Part shown: positions 1,841-57,212 of the stretch, one piece after another
Numbering within the stretch: position 1 is the stretch's first letter
How the letters are laid out: each line of letters begins with the position of its first letter
Source of the DNA: Siphonodentalium dalli
Taxonomy: Eukaryota; Mollusca; Scaphopoda; Gadilida; Siphonodentaliidae
Direction: 5' to 3'
DNA length: 64,000 bases
Assembly: GCA_032622095.1 (NCBI GenBank)
Contig: CP136064.1
Coordinates: forward strand, 263,355,863 to 263,419,862
Notes under the pieces: generated by a model
The model's input: only the letters and a program-made list of their open reading frames with translations
The model's database searches: none
Told to the model about the DNA's origin: nothing
Translations under genes and position numbers: made by a program

Positions 1841-1975
1841 GGACTGAACCCATTTTACTGTTTCCAATGGTTCAGTATGTTTGTTTGGTTTGCAGAGGAT
1901 TATTGGGTCTATGCCATTTGTATAATCTTTATTTCGAACATTTCACTGATTGTGAAAGTATGGCAAATCAGACAG
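1841..1975 (+). CDS. ATP13A2: Exon 1a: alternative M1-M2 exon of the P5B ATPase
   Basis: 135 bases, 45 codons, phase 0 at both ends. The acceptor is tttttcag and the donor is cag/gttaga. The product begins GLNPFYCFQWFSMFVW and ends ISLIVKVWQIRQ. It matches the conserved NPFY-FQ segment that starts the first helix of the core membrane domain in P5B pumps, and the second hydrophobic stretch (YAICIIFISNISLIV). It has the same length and phase as the exon at 2856-2990, and both cannot fit in one protein without repeating the M1-M2 hairpin. It is therefore read as one member of a mutually exclusive pair. The open frame has no stop and keeps family-typical residues, which argues against a relic. 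Confidence 0.82.
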
Positions 1976-2049
1976 GTTAGAGCACCAGTCGTGTTATAAA
2001 CAGGTTCTCTGTATATCCTTTGTTTCTCGCAGGTTAGAGCACCAGTCAG

Positions 2050-2498
2050 AAGTCTGGAAATATTGTGTGTGACATTTGCAGAATGAGGTCCCCAGAGGGT
2101 GAATTTAATGATGCTACCCATACAGCATGCTAGCATCACCAAATTAACCCTCTGGGGACCTCATATTGCTTAGGCCTTATCTTCTTGGAAGTATTTATAT
2201 TCTCAAATTAACATTGTTTTTAGTTTTTTCCCCCTTTTGTTCTGTGACAGTTTCTATATCCCGTAATTTGCAGAAGATAAAAAATGCATAATCGAGGTGA
2301 CTAATTGGTGAACATCACCAACTTCAACTGGGGAACTTCAATCTGATCCTATGTCTCCATTGCAGTTGAGGACTATGCAGAACAAGGTTCCCAGAGGGTG
2401 AATTTGGTGATGCTAGCCCATAATGCGGGATAGTGTTACTAAATTCACCCTCTGGGGACCCCATTCTGCAAATGTCAGACACACTATTTCCAGGCTTG
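2050..2498. mobile_element. H1 MITE, long copy between exons 1a and 1b
   Basis: Starts with gtgtgacatttgcagaatg, about 75 bases after the exon 1a donor. It contains two palindromic core hairpins separated by the internal module and ends tttccaggcttg. It lies in the intron between the two alternative exons. Confidence 0.8.
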
Positions 2499-2599
2499 TC
2501 AGAAAAATATAAGGCTACTTTATCCTTTGTCTCTCGCATATATACATGTACCAGTACCTCTGTTCTTCATGTTATGTCATATAGGCTAGCCTACATGTA

Positions 2600-2812
2600 C
2601 AGTAATGCCCTAAGTAATCGACTCCTTAATCACAGCAGAATTATGGGTAACTGTTCAGGTTTTAGTTGGAAATATGGCTTGTTGCCATTCATCGGAAAGC
2701 TCTCAGTGAGAGCTTTCCGATAAATGGCAACAAGCCATATTTCCGACTAAATCCTGAAAAGTTACCCATAATTATGCTGTGGTTAAGGAGTCAATTATTT
2801 AGGGCATTACTG
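2600..2812. mobile_element. H3 fold-back MITE
   Basis: A 213-bp near-perfect palindrome with ends CAGTAATGCCCTAA, flanked by TA on both sides (2598-2599 and 2813-2814). The centre is gaaagctctcagtgagagctttc. TA target duplication suggests Tc1/mariner-type mobilisation. It ends 43 bases before exon 1b. Confidence 0.88.
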
Positions 2813-2855
2813 TATGTCCTTGTATTTATATGTTTTTCTTCCTCTACATTTCCAG

Positions 2856-2990
2856 GGACTCTCTCCTTTCTATGTCTTCCAAGTTTTCAGTATGATCGTT
2901 TGGTATATTGATGAATATGAAATTTATGCCACGTGTATCATCGTTATATCAGTGTTCTCCCTCGCGGCAACGGTGTGGCAAACAAGAGCT
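2856..2990 (+). CDS. ATP13A2: Exon 1b: alternative M1-M2 exon of the P5B ATPase
   Basis: 135 bases, phase 0 at both ends, with acceptor tttccag and a strong donor gct/gtaagt. The product begins GLSPFYVFQVFSMIVWYIDE and ends SLAATVWQTRA. It shares 26 of 45 residues with exon 1a. Differences cluster in the loop between the helices (AEDYW versus IDEYE) and at the end of M2. Joined to the next exon it gives TRA-MQRALRN, parallel to the TRK-containing segment after M2 in ATP13A2. A fold-back MITE (H3) ends 42 bases before the acceptor. A later degenerate copy at 3441-3900 derives from this exon rather than from 1a. Confidence 0.87.
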
Positions 2991-3440: not shown

Positions 3441-3900
3441 TTTCTATGTCTTCCAAGTTTTAAGTATGATTGTTTAGTATATGTATGAATATGAAATTTA
3501 TGCCACGTGTATCATGGTTATATAGAGAATAATTACCTGATAGAACTAATTCTTGAGAGGCAGTGACATTGTACAAACACGAGAGCGCTCAAGTGTTTTA
3601 CAAGATAGTCCCTGCCTCGATTGAATTATTTCAAGTCACCAGTTCAATCAAATGGTTATTCTGTTTATTATATTCCATTATATTAAACATCTGATTAATT
3701 AGAAATCACTGTCATTATACCCATGATGCATACCTTTTGATAGCGCATATGAATACATAAGGTTATATTTAATTGACATATTTCACTAGTGAAATTATCG
3801 TTTATAATCTCTCGATAAATCAAGGTAAATGACATACAGGAATGTAATAAATCAGTGTTCTCCCTCTCGGCAATGGTGTGGCAAACGAGCTGTAAGTTCC
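3441..3900 (+). pseudogene. Broken third copy of the M1-M2 exon
   Basis: Positions 3441-3523 repeat most of exon 1b (FYVFQV at the start, EYEIYATCI later) but contain an in-frame stop (TAG after SMIV) and lack an acceptor. About 330 bases of unrelated sequence (roughly 3524-3850) then interrupt it. The exon end resumes at about 3851-3891 (tcagtgttctccctc) with a donor-like gtaagtt. About 150 bases of the following intron are also shared with the region after exon 1b, so a genomic segment rather than an mRNA was duplicated. It cannot be spliced as a functional exon. Confidence 0.8.
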
Positions 3901-4112
3901 AATGGTGTAAATCAATTTAATTTGTTTTGTTAAATAAGTGTTCATGATCAATGTTGTGAAAACTAGTTTTAATCTGTTGTTGTTTGTAGTTTTCAACCAA
4001 CAGATGTGTATTATGTTTTCTGCCTTTGTTGCATTGTGAAACTAAAATTAGCTTAATGGTCTTAACACATGCTGAATTTTGCATTTTGTGTTGTTCTGAA
4101 TGTCCCACTTAA

Positions 4113-16575: not shown

Positions 16576-16642
16576 ATGCAGCGAGCCCTCAGGAATACTA
16601 TATCATGTTCCACGGTGGTGCCTGTATGCAGGGGTGATGATG
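16576..16642 (+). CDS. ATP13A2: Exon 2: M2-to-actuator linker
   Basis: 67 bases (22 codons plus one base). Acceptor cttcacag, donor gatg/gtgggt. The product is MQRALRNTIS, then CSTVVPVCRGDD. It follows phase 0 and its last base completes GAG (Glu) with the next exon, giving [12 protein letters not shown]. This fits the P5B segment that has a short amphipathic stretch, a beta strand ending in VCR, then an acidic turn before DL-PGD. It is too short to stand out alone. It is accepted because position, both splice sites, phases and sequence agree. An H1 MITE starts 47 bases downstream. Confidence 0.8.
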
Positions 16643-27402: not shown

Positions 27403-27534
27403 AGTATGAAGACATTCCATCCGAGGATCTGTCTCCAGGTGACATCATCGAGATTCCGAGATACGGCTGTGTGATGCAATGTGATGCCGTGCTCATAACC
27501 GGGAACTGTATTGTCAACGAAAGCATGCTTACAG
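27403..27534 (+). CDS. ATP13A2: Exon 3: actuator domain, first part
   Basis: 132 bases, phase 1 in and phase 1 out. Acceptor gtgttttcag, donor acag/gtttgt. It encodes [18 protein letters not shown], then CDAVLITG and NESMLTG. This is the actuator-domain core of P-type ATPases (L-PGD, CDA-L--G, NES-LTG). The intron interrupts the conserved TGES loop within its Gly codon. Rapid intron decay follows: a Leu-poor tandem A/T stretch and an H2 hairpin begin within about 120 bases. Confidence 0.95.
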
Positions 27535-29134: not shown

Positions 29135-29308
29135 GTGAGAGCGTTCCTGTTACGAAGACTCCACTGCCAAACCCAAAGCTTTCCAATCTACCAGATAAGG
29201 CACTACACATGAAAGAACATGCAAAGAATATACTGTTCTGCGGAACCCATGTCATACAGACCCGTTACTATGGTAACCAGAAAGTCAAGGCTGTTGTATT
29301 GCGAACAG
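29135..29308 (+). CDS. ATP13A2: Exon 4: actuator domain, TGES loop onward
   Basis: 174 bases, phase 1 to phase 1. Acceptor aattttag, donor acag/gtatgt. It starts with GESVPVTKTPLPNP, completing TGES, whose Glu drives dephosphorylation in P-type ATPases. It continues with HAKNILFCGTHVIQTRYYG and KAVVLRTG, the strands that close the actuator domain. LFCGT--IQ-R is characteristic of P5B pumps. Confidence 0.96.
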
Positions 29309-30155: not shown

Positions 30156-30301
30156 GATTTTCCACGTTGAAAGGTGATTTGGTTCGGGCAATTATGTTTC
30201 CGAAGCCTGTGGACTTTAAGTTTAACAGAGATACATACTTCTTCATTCTCATCTTGGCGGGAATCGCTTTTCTCGGCTTCATCTACACTATTGTGCTCAT
30301 G
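30156..30301 (+). CDS. ATP13A2: Exon 5: end of actuator domain and M3
   Basis: 146 bases, entering in phase 1 and ending on a whole codon. Acceptor tcttttttcag, donor atg/gttagt. It encodes GFSTLKGDLVRAIMFPKPVD, then a strongly hydrophobic helix (FFILILAGIAFLGFIYTIVL), which is M3. The G-F-T-KG-LVR-I--P-P motif is a P5 hallmark. The reading frame meets a stop soon after the donor, supporting this exon end. Confidence 0.95.
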
Positions 30302-31182: not shown

Positions 31183-31383
31183 CTGCAGGATGAACGAACT
31201 ATCGGCGTTATCATCATTCGCTCCCTTGATCTCATCACCATCACTGTACCTCCTGCGCTTCCGGCTGCTCTCACTGTTGGAATAGTGTTTGCTCAGCGTC
31301 GTCTCAGAAAGAATCTAATATATTGTATCAGTCCACGGTGTATAAACATCTGTGGATCTATAAATGCTGTCTGTTTTGATAAG
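31183..31383 (+). CDS. ATP13A2: Exon 6: M4 with PPALP, and phosphorylation Asp
   Basis: 201 bases, 67 codons, phase 0 to phase 0. It encodes [20 protein letters not shown], then [13 protein letters not shown] (M4, the P5B substrate-site motif), [20 protein letters not shown] and AVCFDK. The phosphorylated Asp codon is 31378-31380, followed only by Lys before the donor (aag/gtgag). The start at 31183 keeps the usual spacing between M3 and the RSLD segment. A second AG six bases on (cagctgcag) could remove Leu-Gln. H3 ends 36 bases upstream and a hAT-like terminus starts 5 bases after the exon. Confidence 0.95.
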
Positions 31384-35749: not shown

Positions 35750-35811
35750 ACGGGGACATTGACGGAAGACGGGCTGGATATGAAAGGTGTGGTCCTTGTC
35801 TCTGGTGGAAA
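35750..35811 (+). CDS. ATP13A2: Exon 7: TGTLTEDGLD
   Basis: 62 bases, phase 0 to phase 2. Acceptor acttttcag, donor gaaa/gtaagt. It encodes TGTLTEDGLDMKGVVLVSGG. Together with the preceding FDK it makes the DKTGTLTE signature. The split directly after DK places the catalytic loop on two exons 4.4 kb apart. GLD is typical of P5 pumps. Confidence 0.95.
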
Positions 35812-40812: not shown

Positions 40813-40957
40813 GTTTAATGAGGAAGAAGATAATATGAAACAGTTACCTGACGGACCAGCTCTCTATACACTAGCTACCTGTCATTCTCTCACGCTCATT
40901 GAGGGCAAAATCTGTGGCGACCCACTAGATCTCATTATGTTCGAGTCGATTGGCTGG
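40813..40957 (+). CDS. ATP13A2: Exon 8: start of N domain
   Basis: 145 bases, phase 2 to phase 0. Acceptor tttggcag, donor tgg/gtaagt. It encodes KFNEEEDNMKQLPDGP, then TLATCHSLTLIEG and GDPLDLIMFESIGW. ATCHSL--IEG---GDPLDL-MFE--GW is the conserved P5B stretch at the entry to the nucleotide-binding domain. Confidence 0.95.
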
Positions 40958-42661: not shown

Positions 42662-42772
42662 GATCTTGAAGAACCCGGCCACGAGGAGACCCGATTTGAT
42701 AAGATGGTGCCAACTGTTGTTAGACCAAAGACTCCAGATATCATCCGCAGCACATATGATTCTGGGGAACCG
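42662..42772 (+). CDS. ATP13A2: Exon 9: variable N-domain segment
   Basis: 111 bases, 37 codons, phase 0 to phase 0. Acceptor atttaatgcag, donor ccg/gtaggt. It encodes DLEEPGHEETRFDKMVPTVV, then RPKTPDIIRS and YDSGEP. The VVRP motif matches the low-conservation N-domain insert of P5B ATPases. An H1 MITE begins 29 bases after the exon. Confidence 0.88.
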
Positions 42773-43531: not shown

Positions 43532-43688
43532 CCCCTGACGGTAGAGCTGGGAGTGATTCGACAGTTCACATTCTCATCAAGTCTCCAGCGGATGTCTGTG
43601 ATAGCACGAGCCCTCGATGGACAGAATTTTAATATCTACTGCAAAGGTGCTCCTGAGATGATCTCGTCCCTCTCCAAACCTGATACAA
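43532..43688 (+). CDS. ATP13A2: Exon 10: nucleotide-binding core (KGAPE)
   Basis: 157 bases, phase 0 to phase 1. Acceptor ttctattgaag, donor acaa/gtatgt. It encodes LGVIRQFTFSSSLQRMSVIA, then YCKGAPEMISSLSKPDT. F-FSS-LQRMSV and KGAPE are the nucleotide-binding motifs of the N domain. A 37-bp minisatellite derived from the end of an H2 element starts about 12 bases after the donor. Confidence 0.96.
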
Positions 43689-45196: not shown

Positions 45197-45317
45197 TTCC
45201 ATACAACTTTCATGATATTCTCACTAAATACACTCAGCACGGGTACAGAGTTATTGGCCTTGCATGGAAGCCACTCTCATCAAAGATGAACTATGTAAAA
45301 ATCCAGCGAATTCAGAG
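45197..45317 (+). CDS. ATP13A2: Exon 11: late N domain
   Basis: 121 bases, phase 1 to phase 2. Acceptor cattttcag, donor cagag/gtttgt. It encodes IPYNFHDILTKYTQHGYRVI, then GLAWKPLSSKMNYVKIQRIQ. The pattern F---L--YT--GYRV--LA-K-L is the N-to-P domain return strand in ATP13A2-type pumps. Confidence 0.94.
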
Positions 45318-45857: not shown

Positions 45858-45929
45858 GAATAATATGGTGCCTGGTATAATATGTAGATTTTTTAATTTC
45901 CTCAGTAAATGCACTGTCCTTTAAAACAG

Positions 45930-46054
45930 GGAACAAGTGGAGAAAGATCTCATATTCCTTGGTCTCCTTGTGATGGAGAACAGACTGAAGCCAGAGACTA
46001 CTCCCGTCATAAACGAACTGAGAGAAGCGAACATCAAGACGATCATGATCACAG
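45930..46054 (+). CDS. ATP13A2: Exon 12: return to P domain
   Basis: 125 bases, phase 2 to phase 1. Acceptor ttaaaacag (weak pyrimidine tract), donor acag/gttagt. It encodes [20 protein letters not shown], then [19 protein letters not shown] and MITG. LGLL-M-N-LK--T-PVI-ELR-A-I-T-MITG is the P-domain helix-strand unit ending in the TGDN motif, which the next intron splits within its Gly codon. The last 71 bases are duplicated 85 bases downstream. Confidence 0.95.
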
Positions 46055-46069
46055 GTTAGTCATCAGTTA

Positions 46070-46140
46070 CTGAAACCAGAGACTACTCCCGTCATAAACA
46101 AGCTGAGAGAAGCGAACATCAAGACGATTATGATCACAGG
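46070..46140 (+). pseudogene. Partial tandem duplicate of the end of exon 12
   Basis: Seventy-one bases copy 45985-46055 with only four or five changes. They encode [19 protein letters not shown] and MITG, followed by a donor-like acag/gtttgt. Two differences are silent and one codon changes Glu to Lys. There is no acceptor in front of it. Reading through from exon 12 meets TAG immediately after the first donor, so it cannot simply extend the exon. It is probably a recent slippage or tandem-duplication product. Confidence 0.85.
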
Positions 46141-51396: not shown

Positions 51397-51566
51397 GTGA
51401 TAACATACTGACAGCCCTCAGTGTTGCCAGAGAATCTGGGATGGTGGATCAAACTGATAAGATAATCATGGTGCAGGCGAGTCAGATCGACGACAATCCT
51501 GCTGAAATCGAGTTTATATACGCCGATAACAAAGACGAGAAGGTTGAAGAAGTCCATCAAAAACAT
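51397..51566 (+). CDS. ATP13A2: Exon 13: P domain after TGDN
   Basis: 170 bases, phase 1 to phase 0. Acceptor accttgcag, donor cat/gtgagt. It encodes GDNILTALSVARESGMV, then DKIIMVQASQIDDNPAEIEF and a charged tail ending HQKH. GDN--TA-SVAR--GM is the conserved hinge, and the Asn distinguishes the ATP13A2 pattern from TGDS. An H2 element runs to about 51383, leaving only about a dozen bases between the transposon end and the exon. Confidence 0.95.
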
Positions 51567-56909: not shown

Positions 56910-57062
56910 ATATTATGTTGGTATGTGTGGAGATGGAGCTAATGATTGTGGTGCATTGAAAGCAGCCCACACCGGGATCTCCTTGTCTGAGGCTGAAGCG
57001 TCTGTAGCATCTCCATTTACGAGCAAAAAGGCCAATATAGAATGTGTTCCTACAGTCGTCAG
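56910..57062 (+). CDS. ATP13A2: Exon 16: GDGANDCG hinge
   Basis: 153 bases, phase 2 to phase 2. Acceptor tttgtgcag, donor tcag/gtaagt. It encodes [20 protein letters not shown], then [20 protein letters not shown] and [10 protein letters not shown]. The [11 protein letters not shown] hinge binds Mg2+ and positions the phosphorylated Asp, and [14 protein letters not shown] is P5B-specific. The intron in front carries several imitation copies of this exon's first 26 bases, which may challenge correct acceptor choice. Confidence 0.97.
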
Positions 57063-57212
57063 GTAAGTTCCTGTATAAACAAGCCAATATAGAGAGTGTT
57101 TATATGGGTGTCAAGAAAGTTCCAAACTACCCTATTTTCACCTGTTAACAACCCTGCACAGTGTAACTGAAAATCTGAGGCAGAGATTTATGTTCTGGCA
57201 AGTCAACATAGA

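Follow-up and report, generated by a model that had tools for sequence, protein, structure and literature searches.

The P5B gene and its two hairpin exons

The window, a stretch of 64,000 nucleotides of a scaphopod chromosome (Siphonodentalium dalli, contig CP136064.1, positions 263,355,863 to 263,419,862), carries part of a gene for a P5B ATPase. We also examined the 30 kb upstream of the window (L005), where the gene has three more exons. The exons were found by a tblastn-type comparison with a second P5B gene of the same genome (the paralogue); repeated 13-mers were masked, as unmasked frames were swamped by repeats. The exons of the gene are as follows.

L005, upstream of the window: two earlier N-terminal exons
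L005:8148-8220: upstream exon, ends ..LLVKE, phase 0
1841..1975, + strand: exon 1a, with M1, the luminal loop and most of M2, version a; GLNPFYCFQWFSMFVWFAEDYWVYAICIIFISNISLIVKVWQIRQ
2856..2990, + strand: exon 1b, with M1, the luminal loop and most of M2, version b; GLSPFYVFQVFSMIVWYIDEYEIYATCIIVISVFSLAATVWQTRA
16576..16642, + strand: next shared exon, 67 nt, entered in phase 0; aligned by position to the paralogue's exon at L007:7065
27403..27534, + strand: shared exon, A domain (..NESMLTG)
29135..29308, + strand: shared exon, A domain (ESVPVTKTPL..)
30156..30301, + strand: shared exon, around M3
31189..31383, + strand: shared exon, M4 with PPALP, ends CFDK
35750..35811, + strand: shared exon, TGTLTEDGLD
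40813..40957, + strand: shared exon, N domain
42662..42772, + strand: shared exon, N domain
43532..43688, + strand: shared exon, N domain with KGAPE
45197..45317, + strand: shared exon
45930..46054, + strand: shared exon, ends MITG
51397..51566, + strand: shared exon, begins (G)DN
56911..57063, + strand: later P-domain coding match, approximate edges

All 15 shared exons have AG before them and GT after them. When either 1a or 1b is joined to the three exons upstream and 12 exons downstream, the translation runs for 658 amino acids without a stop. (This is a partial protein; the gene's 5' start and 3' end lie outside the model.) Against TIGR01657, the P5B family model, the partial protein scores 740.7 bits with 1a and 745.4 bits with 1b, and the curated cut-off is 618.25 bits. 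For a 430-residue stretch of the protein with 1a, the best match is human ATP13A2 (371 bits), followed by a P5B ATPase from Chaetomium (298 bits); the best P5A-type chain scores 179 bits. The joined exons contain the catalytic motifs CFDKTGTLTEDGLD, LTGESVP, and YCKGAPE. Both modelled isoforms resemble ATP13A2 and other P5B ATPases in passing the family model and in having TGES, DKTGT, KGAPE, and, within the TVPPALPAA of M4, the PPALP that marks P5B. From its family alone, the protein is a putative polyamine transporter.

Exons 1a and 1b are neighbouring internal exons within one intron of this gene, and they share their flanking exons (L005:8148-8220 upstream and 16576-16642 downstream). Each is 135 nt long, has phase 0 at both ends, and is translated without a stop; 26 of their 45 residues and 83 of their 135 bases are identical. 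In the Protein Data Bank (PDB), both match P5B ATPases at the same place, which corresponds to residues 237-279 of human ATP13A2. The best E value for 1a is 6.6e-8; exon 1b has E = 1e-7 against Chaetomium P5B and 2.4e-6 against ATP13A2. A preliminary description of the window had reported two 135-nt exons in the same phase, with 26 of 45 residues identical, which encode the M1-M2 hairpin of a P5B pump. We confirmed the exons (at these coordinates, and open in phase 0), the identity of the hairpin, and the assignment of the pump.

AlphaFold modelled each 45-residue exon on its own as one long helix (mean pLDDT 91.0 for 1a and 93.1 for 1b). We take the single helices as an artefact of folding a fragment; at face value, the models do not support a hairpin. 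In their homology, reading frame, length, and GT-AG sites, 1a and 1b have the features by which mutually exclusive homologous exons are recognized. The two exons are a real and old tandem duplication, with both copies intact, in the gene for a putative polyamine pump.

Duplication, decay and selection of the hairpin exon

We searched the whole genome (G000; 2.23 Gb in nine contigs) for related genes. A model of type-V ATPases gave at least 10 matches (8 of 72 candidates were scored), which fall in three genes: the window gene, the second P5B gene, at a distance of 12 Mb on the same contig, and a gene on contig 9, of which we examined 20 kb and which we take, from its hairpin sequence, to be P5A. 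The two P5B genes are on G000:C4, near 251.1 Mb and 263.4 Mb. Most protostomes, in contrast, are described as having a single P5B gene (PMC5837089).

In the paralogue, the boundaries of the hairpin exon (L007:5742-5876) match those of 1a and 1b; we found a single copy of it in the 40 kb that we examined. When we searched the whole genome with exon 1a, accepting E values up to 10, we recovered only 1a, 1b, and the paralogue's exon (all seven candidates were scored). Within the window gene, we looked for tandem copies of 13 other exon segments; 12 have none, and the segment at 45925-46053 has a partial copy.

We also noticed a broken third copy of the hairpin exon, 1c, which the preliminary description did not mention:

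3441..3523, + strand: exon 1c, first piece; 77/83 identical to 1b; has an in-frame stop and lacks the exon start and the acceptor
3848..3975, + strand: exon 1c, second piece, which includes flanking intron; 115/132 identical to 1b; coding part has lost 2 nt

An insert of about 325 nt separates the two pieces. Exon 1c shows how fast unused copies decay here, and it shows that the hairpin exon was duplicated more than once. (Exon 1c may have been incomplete from the outset.) Since 1c is about 89% identical to 1b and yet is broken, an unconstrained copy as old as 1a and 1b would not be expected to be intact.

The differences between 1a and 1b are concentrated at third codon positions. Of the 52 differences in 135 bases, 12, 13, and 27 are at the first, second, and third positions (third versus first plus second, Fisher p = 3.7e-4, or 0.0004), so third positions differ in 27 of 45 codons. 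When we simulated 52 random substitutions under neutrality, starting from either exon, 26 identical residues were kept in 0 of 20,000 simulations. Human ATP13A2, Chaetomium P5B, and the paralogue all have the same residue in 20 of the 43 aligned columns; exon 1a retains 14 of these residues and exon 1b retains 15. The two exons agree at 17 of the 20 invariant columns and at 8 of the 23 others (p = 0.0016). Furthermore, six residues are common to 1a and 1b and occur in none of the other three proteins.

Bias across codon positions was not significant for either copy alone: with changes polarized by the paralogue, the counts are 3/7/9 for 1a (p = 0.19) and 6/5/8 for 1b (p = 0.43), and the polarization leaves too few changes per branch. 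We relied on codon-position counts instead of dN/dS because synonymous sites are near saturation. (For the three pairs of exons, NG86 gave no dS, LWL85 gave dN/dS of 1.13 and 1.35 for two pairs, and YN00 gave 0.77 for one pair.) Overall, the sequence comparisons point to a duplication within this gene, after its split from the paralogue, followed by protein-level selection that would have acted on the pair rather than demonstrably on each copy.

Splice sites, transposons and the proposed choice between 1a and 1b

We scored splice sites with a consensus matrix. Both acceptors are strong, with 7.2 bits for 1a and 8.5 bits for 1b (0.45-10.4 for nine other acceptors in the window). The donors are CAG/GTTAGA for 1a (2.9 bits) and GCT/GTAAGT for 1b (1.8 bits). 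The 15 other donors of the gene range from 0.68 to 8.29 bits with a median of 4.31; five of them are below the donor of 1a and three are below that of 1b. The paralogue's single-copy hairpin exon has a donor of 8.29 bits. The earlier claim that each exon has good splice sites stands for the acceptors, but the donors are weaker than it implied. Regulated exons usually have weak donors, and weak donors are also common elsewhere in the window gene. The donor of 1a is repeated 57 nt downstream with an equal score; its use would read into an in-frame TAA.

Several exon edges in these genes lie in short repeats. The 18 nt that span the donor of 1a (1973-1990) recur at 2030-2047, beside a transposon end, and a 57-nt direct repeat (82%; 1700-1756 and 1771-1827) covers the approach to the acceptor of 1a. 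At 46069-46138, the 3' half of the exon that ends at 46054 is tandemly repeated along with its donor (94% over 70 nt); this second donor, if used, would add 85 nt and shift the frame. The end of the paralogue's exon (..MITG/GTAAGT, at L009:1146) recurs 40 nt downstream, at L009:1186. The same exon edge, at MITG, is duplicated in both P5B genes.

About three quarters of the intron between 1a and 1b is transposon, in two elements:

2050..2498, no strand assigned: MITE-like transposon with inverted ends, between 1a and 1b; its family recurs across the genome and in this gene
2598..2814, no strand assigned: foldback transposon of 217 nt, with 108-nt arms that are 93% complementary and a 1-nt loop; ends 41 nt before 1b

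Both families recur many times in the introns of the window. The foldback stretch has a predicted folding energy of -178.9 kcal/mol (z = -25). Repeat arms of 135 nt, 79% complementary, flank 1a, and repeats have rearranged both of its flanks.

We think it likely that the M1-M2 exon was duplicated in tandem after the split from the paralogue and that 1a and 1b are now alternatives, with one of them in each mRNA. Judging from the sequence, we infer that each is spliced in to the exclusion of the other. The A domain of ATP13A2 is connected to TM1 and TM2, and Site1 lies among TM1, TM2, TM4a, TM5, and TM6 (PMC10082790). Given that M1-M2 both connects to the A domain and forms part of the lining of Site1, we would expect one hairpin per protein. 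With this architecture, a pump without M1-M2 would lack part of its substrate entrance along with the link to the A domain, which supports alternative use of the two exons.

Alternatively, a single copy may be in use, with the other an old duplicate that recently lost its role and has not yet decayed, so that the gene makes one pump. One copy may recently have lost its function: the branch-wise tests are not significant and are compatible with either copy having evolved neutrally for some of the time. Both donors score below the median for the gene, with 1b lower than 1a, the repeats have altered the surroundings of 1a, and the sibling copy 1c did die. Also, most human candidates for this kind of splicing were not verified: of 6,541 candidates, 1,399 were verified as mutually exclusive and 1,741 were undecided (PMC5740500). 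This rate lowers our confidence in any candidate that is judged without reads. However, in both 1a and 1b, the reading frame, the splice sites (all four), and most of the family-invariant residues are intact despite the divergence at 27 of 45 third positions. We consider single-copy use to be unlikely.

If 1a and 1b are mutually exclusive, what enforces it? Four mechanisms have been described: frame and NMD, U2/U12 incompatibility, RNA structure, and proximity of the 5' splice site to the branch point (PMC7969005). Frame and NMD would not act here, as mRNAs with both exons (703 residues in the modelled part) or with neither (613 residues) stay in frame and have no stop. All four splice sites are GT-AG with ordinary consensus, as judged by eye, so U2/U12 incompatibility looks absent too. 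Steric exclusion and exclusion by a distant branch point are disfavoured by the 880-nt length of the intron between 1a and 1b and by the short AG exclusion zones (just 51 nt for 1b, and 62 nt for 1a). With frame/NMD, short-intron, distant-branch-point, and minor-spliceosome mechanisms seemingly absent, trans-acting factors or RNA structure remain, and exclusive splicing of 1a and 1b, if real, would need one of these. Between non-repeat pieces of the introns, predicted duplexes were no better than shuffles for 10 of 10 pairs (all p > 0.15).

The RNA structure might instead come from the repeats: the choice of exon could be set by the foldback, with its predicted stability and its end 41 nt before 1b, or by the long complementary arms around 1a, which could loop it out. 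This sub-hypothesis concerns the regulator and is no rival to alternative use of 1a and 1b. Since the same families recur at many other intron places of this gene, we rank the foldback and the inverted arms low as switches; the non-repeat pieces, furthermore, show no special pairing. A repeat-derived switch is, in our view, very unlikely.

It is also very unlikely that 1a and 1b are alternative without being exclusive, so that some mRNAs have both and make a protein with two hairpins, or have neither: both forms are in frame, and our search found no mechanism that blocks joint inclusion, but we know of no P5B protein with a doubled hairpin. An extra or missing hairpin would be expected to disrupt the A-domain link and Site1. 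It has been argued that helix-encoding exons in pairs cannot act as cassettes, as this would move what follows to the other side of the membrane (PMC5740500). This argument does not apply to 1a and 1b because each encodes two helices: a doubled hairpin should add an even number of helices and keep the same membrane side.

What a hairpin swap might do

Under alternative use of 1a and 1b, the M1-M2 exon would have been duplicated in tandem inside a P5B gene after its split from the paralogue, and the two intact copies would be used one per mRNA. Each mRNA would encode a complete pump, and the differences would be confined to M1, the luminal M1-M2 loop, and most of M2. We propose that the swap would tune the capture of polyamines, or the kinetics, at the luminal entrance, and would not create a new pump or a new class of substrate.

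In ATP13A2, W251, Y256, and F963 close Site1, and D254 is among the acids at its mouth (PMC10082790). In our alignment, the equivalents of W251 and Y256 are identical in 1a and 1b, and so we predict a subtle functional change. At the position of D254, 1a has E and 1b has D; at that of human Y257, 1a has W and 1b has E. By exon position, the entrance residues are E19, D20, and W22 in 1a and D19, E20, and E22 in 1b, so that 1b has one acid more than 1a near the entrance. In all, 18 of the 43 aligned positions differ, and hydrophobic residues are changed in both helices. By analogy with ATP13A2, where W251, D254, and Y256 are at the luminal entrance, a tuning of substrate entry fits these differences. 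More tentatively, and with the odds against it, one P5B gene might make two pumps with different entrance chemistry, switched by tissue or stage.

PMCA belongs to another subfamily (P2B) than the window gene, and its duplicated exons sit elsewhere in the protein than M1-M2. Like the window gene, it is a P-type ATPase with a tandem exon duplication, and its copies are used as substitutions in vertebrates, arthropods, and nematodes (PMC9741552). More generally, 1a and 1b share with the described substitutions of tandemly duplicated exons (PMC9741552, PMC5740500) that they are adjacent, internal, and homologous, with equal length, equal phase, and GT-AG sites, in a membrane transport protein; they differ in being known from sequence, and our search found no enforcing mechanism for them. 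In NALCN, alternative pore exons change the ion-facing part in many invertebrates, so that one gene has two versions, as we propose here (PMC3557258). The NALCN exons change residues of the selectivity filter, whereas the matches to W251 and Y256 are unchanged between 1a and 1b. Exons 4a and 4b of OGDH are a mutually exclusive pair that tunes the response to an ion, which resembles the role that we propose for 1a and 1b (PMC7969005). In OGDH, exclusivity depends on distant branch points, which restrict the length of the intron and the insertion of transposons, whereas the window gene has a long intron made up largely of transposons and a short AG zone.

For human ATP13A2, 15 transcripts are described, some of which differ in a segment of exon 5, leave out exons 22 and 28, or skip exon 13; the available text mentions no M1-M2 swap, in contrast to the exon pair of the window gene (PMC4573652). 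The accessible part of PMC11767420 does not describe an M1-M2 exon swap in ATP13A genes either, and the changes described for Drosophila ATPalpha are in exon inclusion and are not a hairpin swap (PMC11765297). This type of event is already known in P-type ATPases, and its location may be what is new: among the literature matches listed, none reports an exon swap at M1-M2 of a P5B ATPase or of any P-type ATPase. These matches do not contradict the preliminary description, which knew of no such swap in this family.

If one gene does make two such switched pumps, then polyamine preference or affinity would be diversified by splicing in this gene, rather than by gene duplication, which is the route taken by the P5B genes of vertebrates. 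How polyamines are selected and admitted at the luminal entrance is still being worked out, and a natural pair of M1-M2 hairpins, with the rest of the pump unchanged, would amount to a ready-made swap experiment at this site. It would also add the P5 branch to the P-type ATPases that have been diversified by exon substitution.
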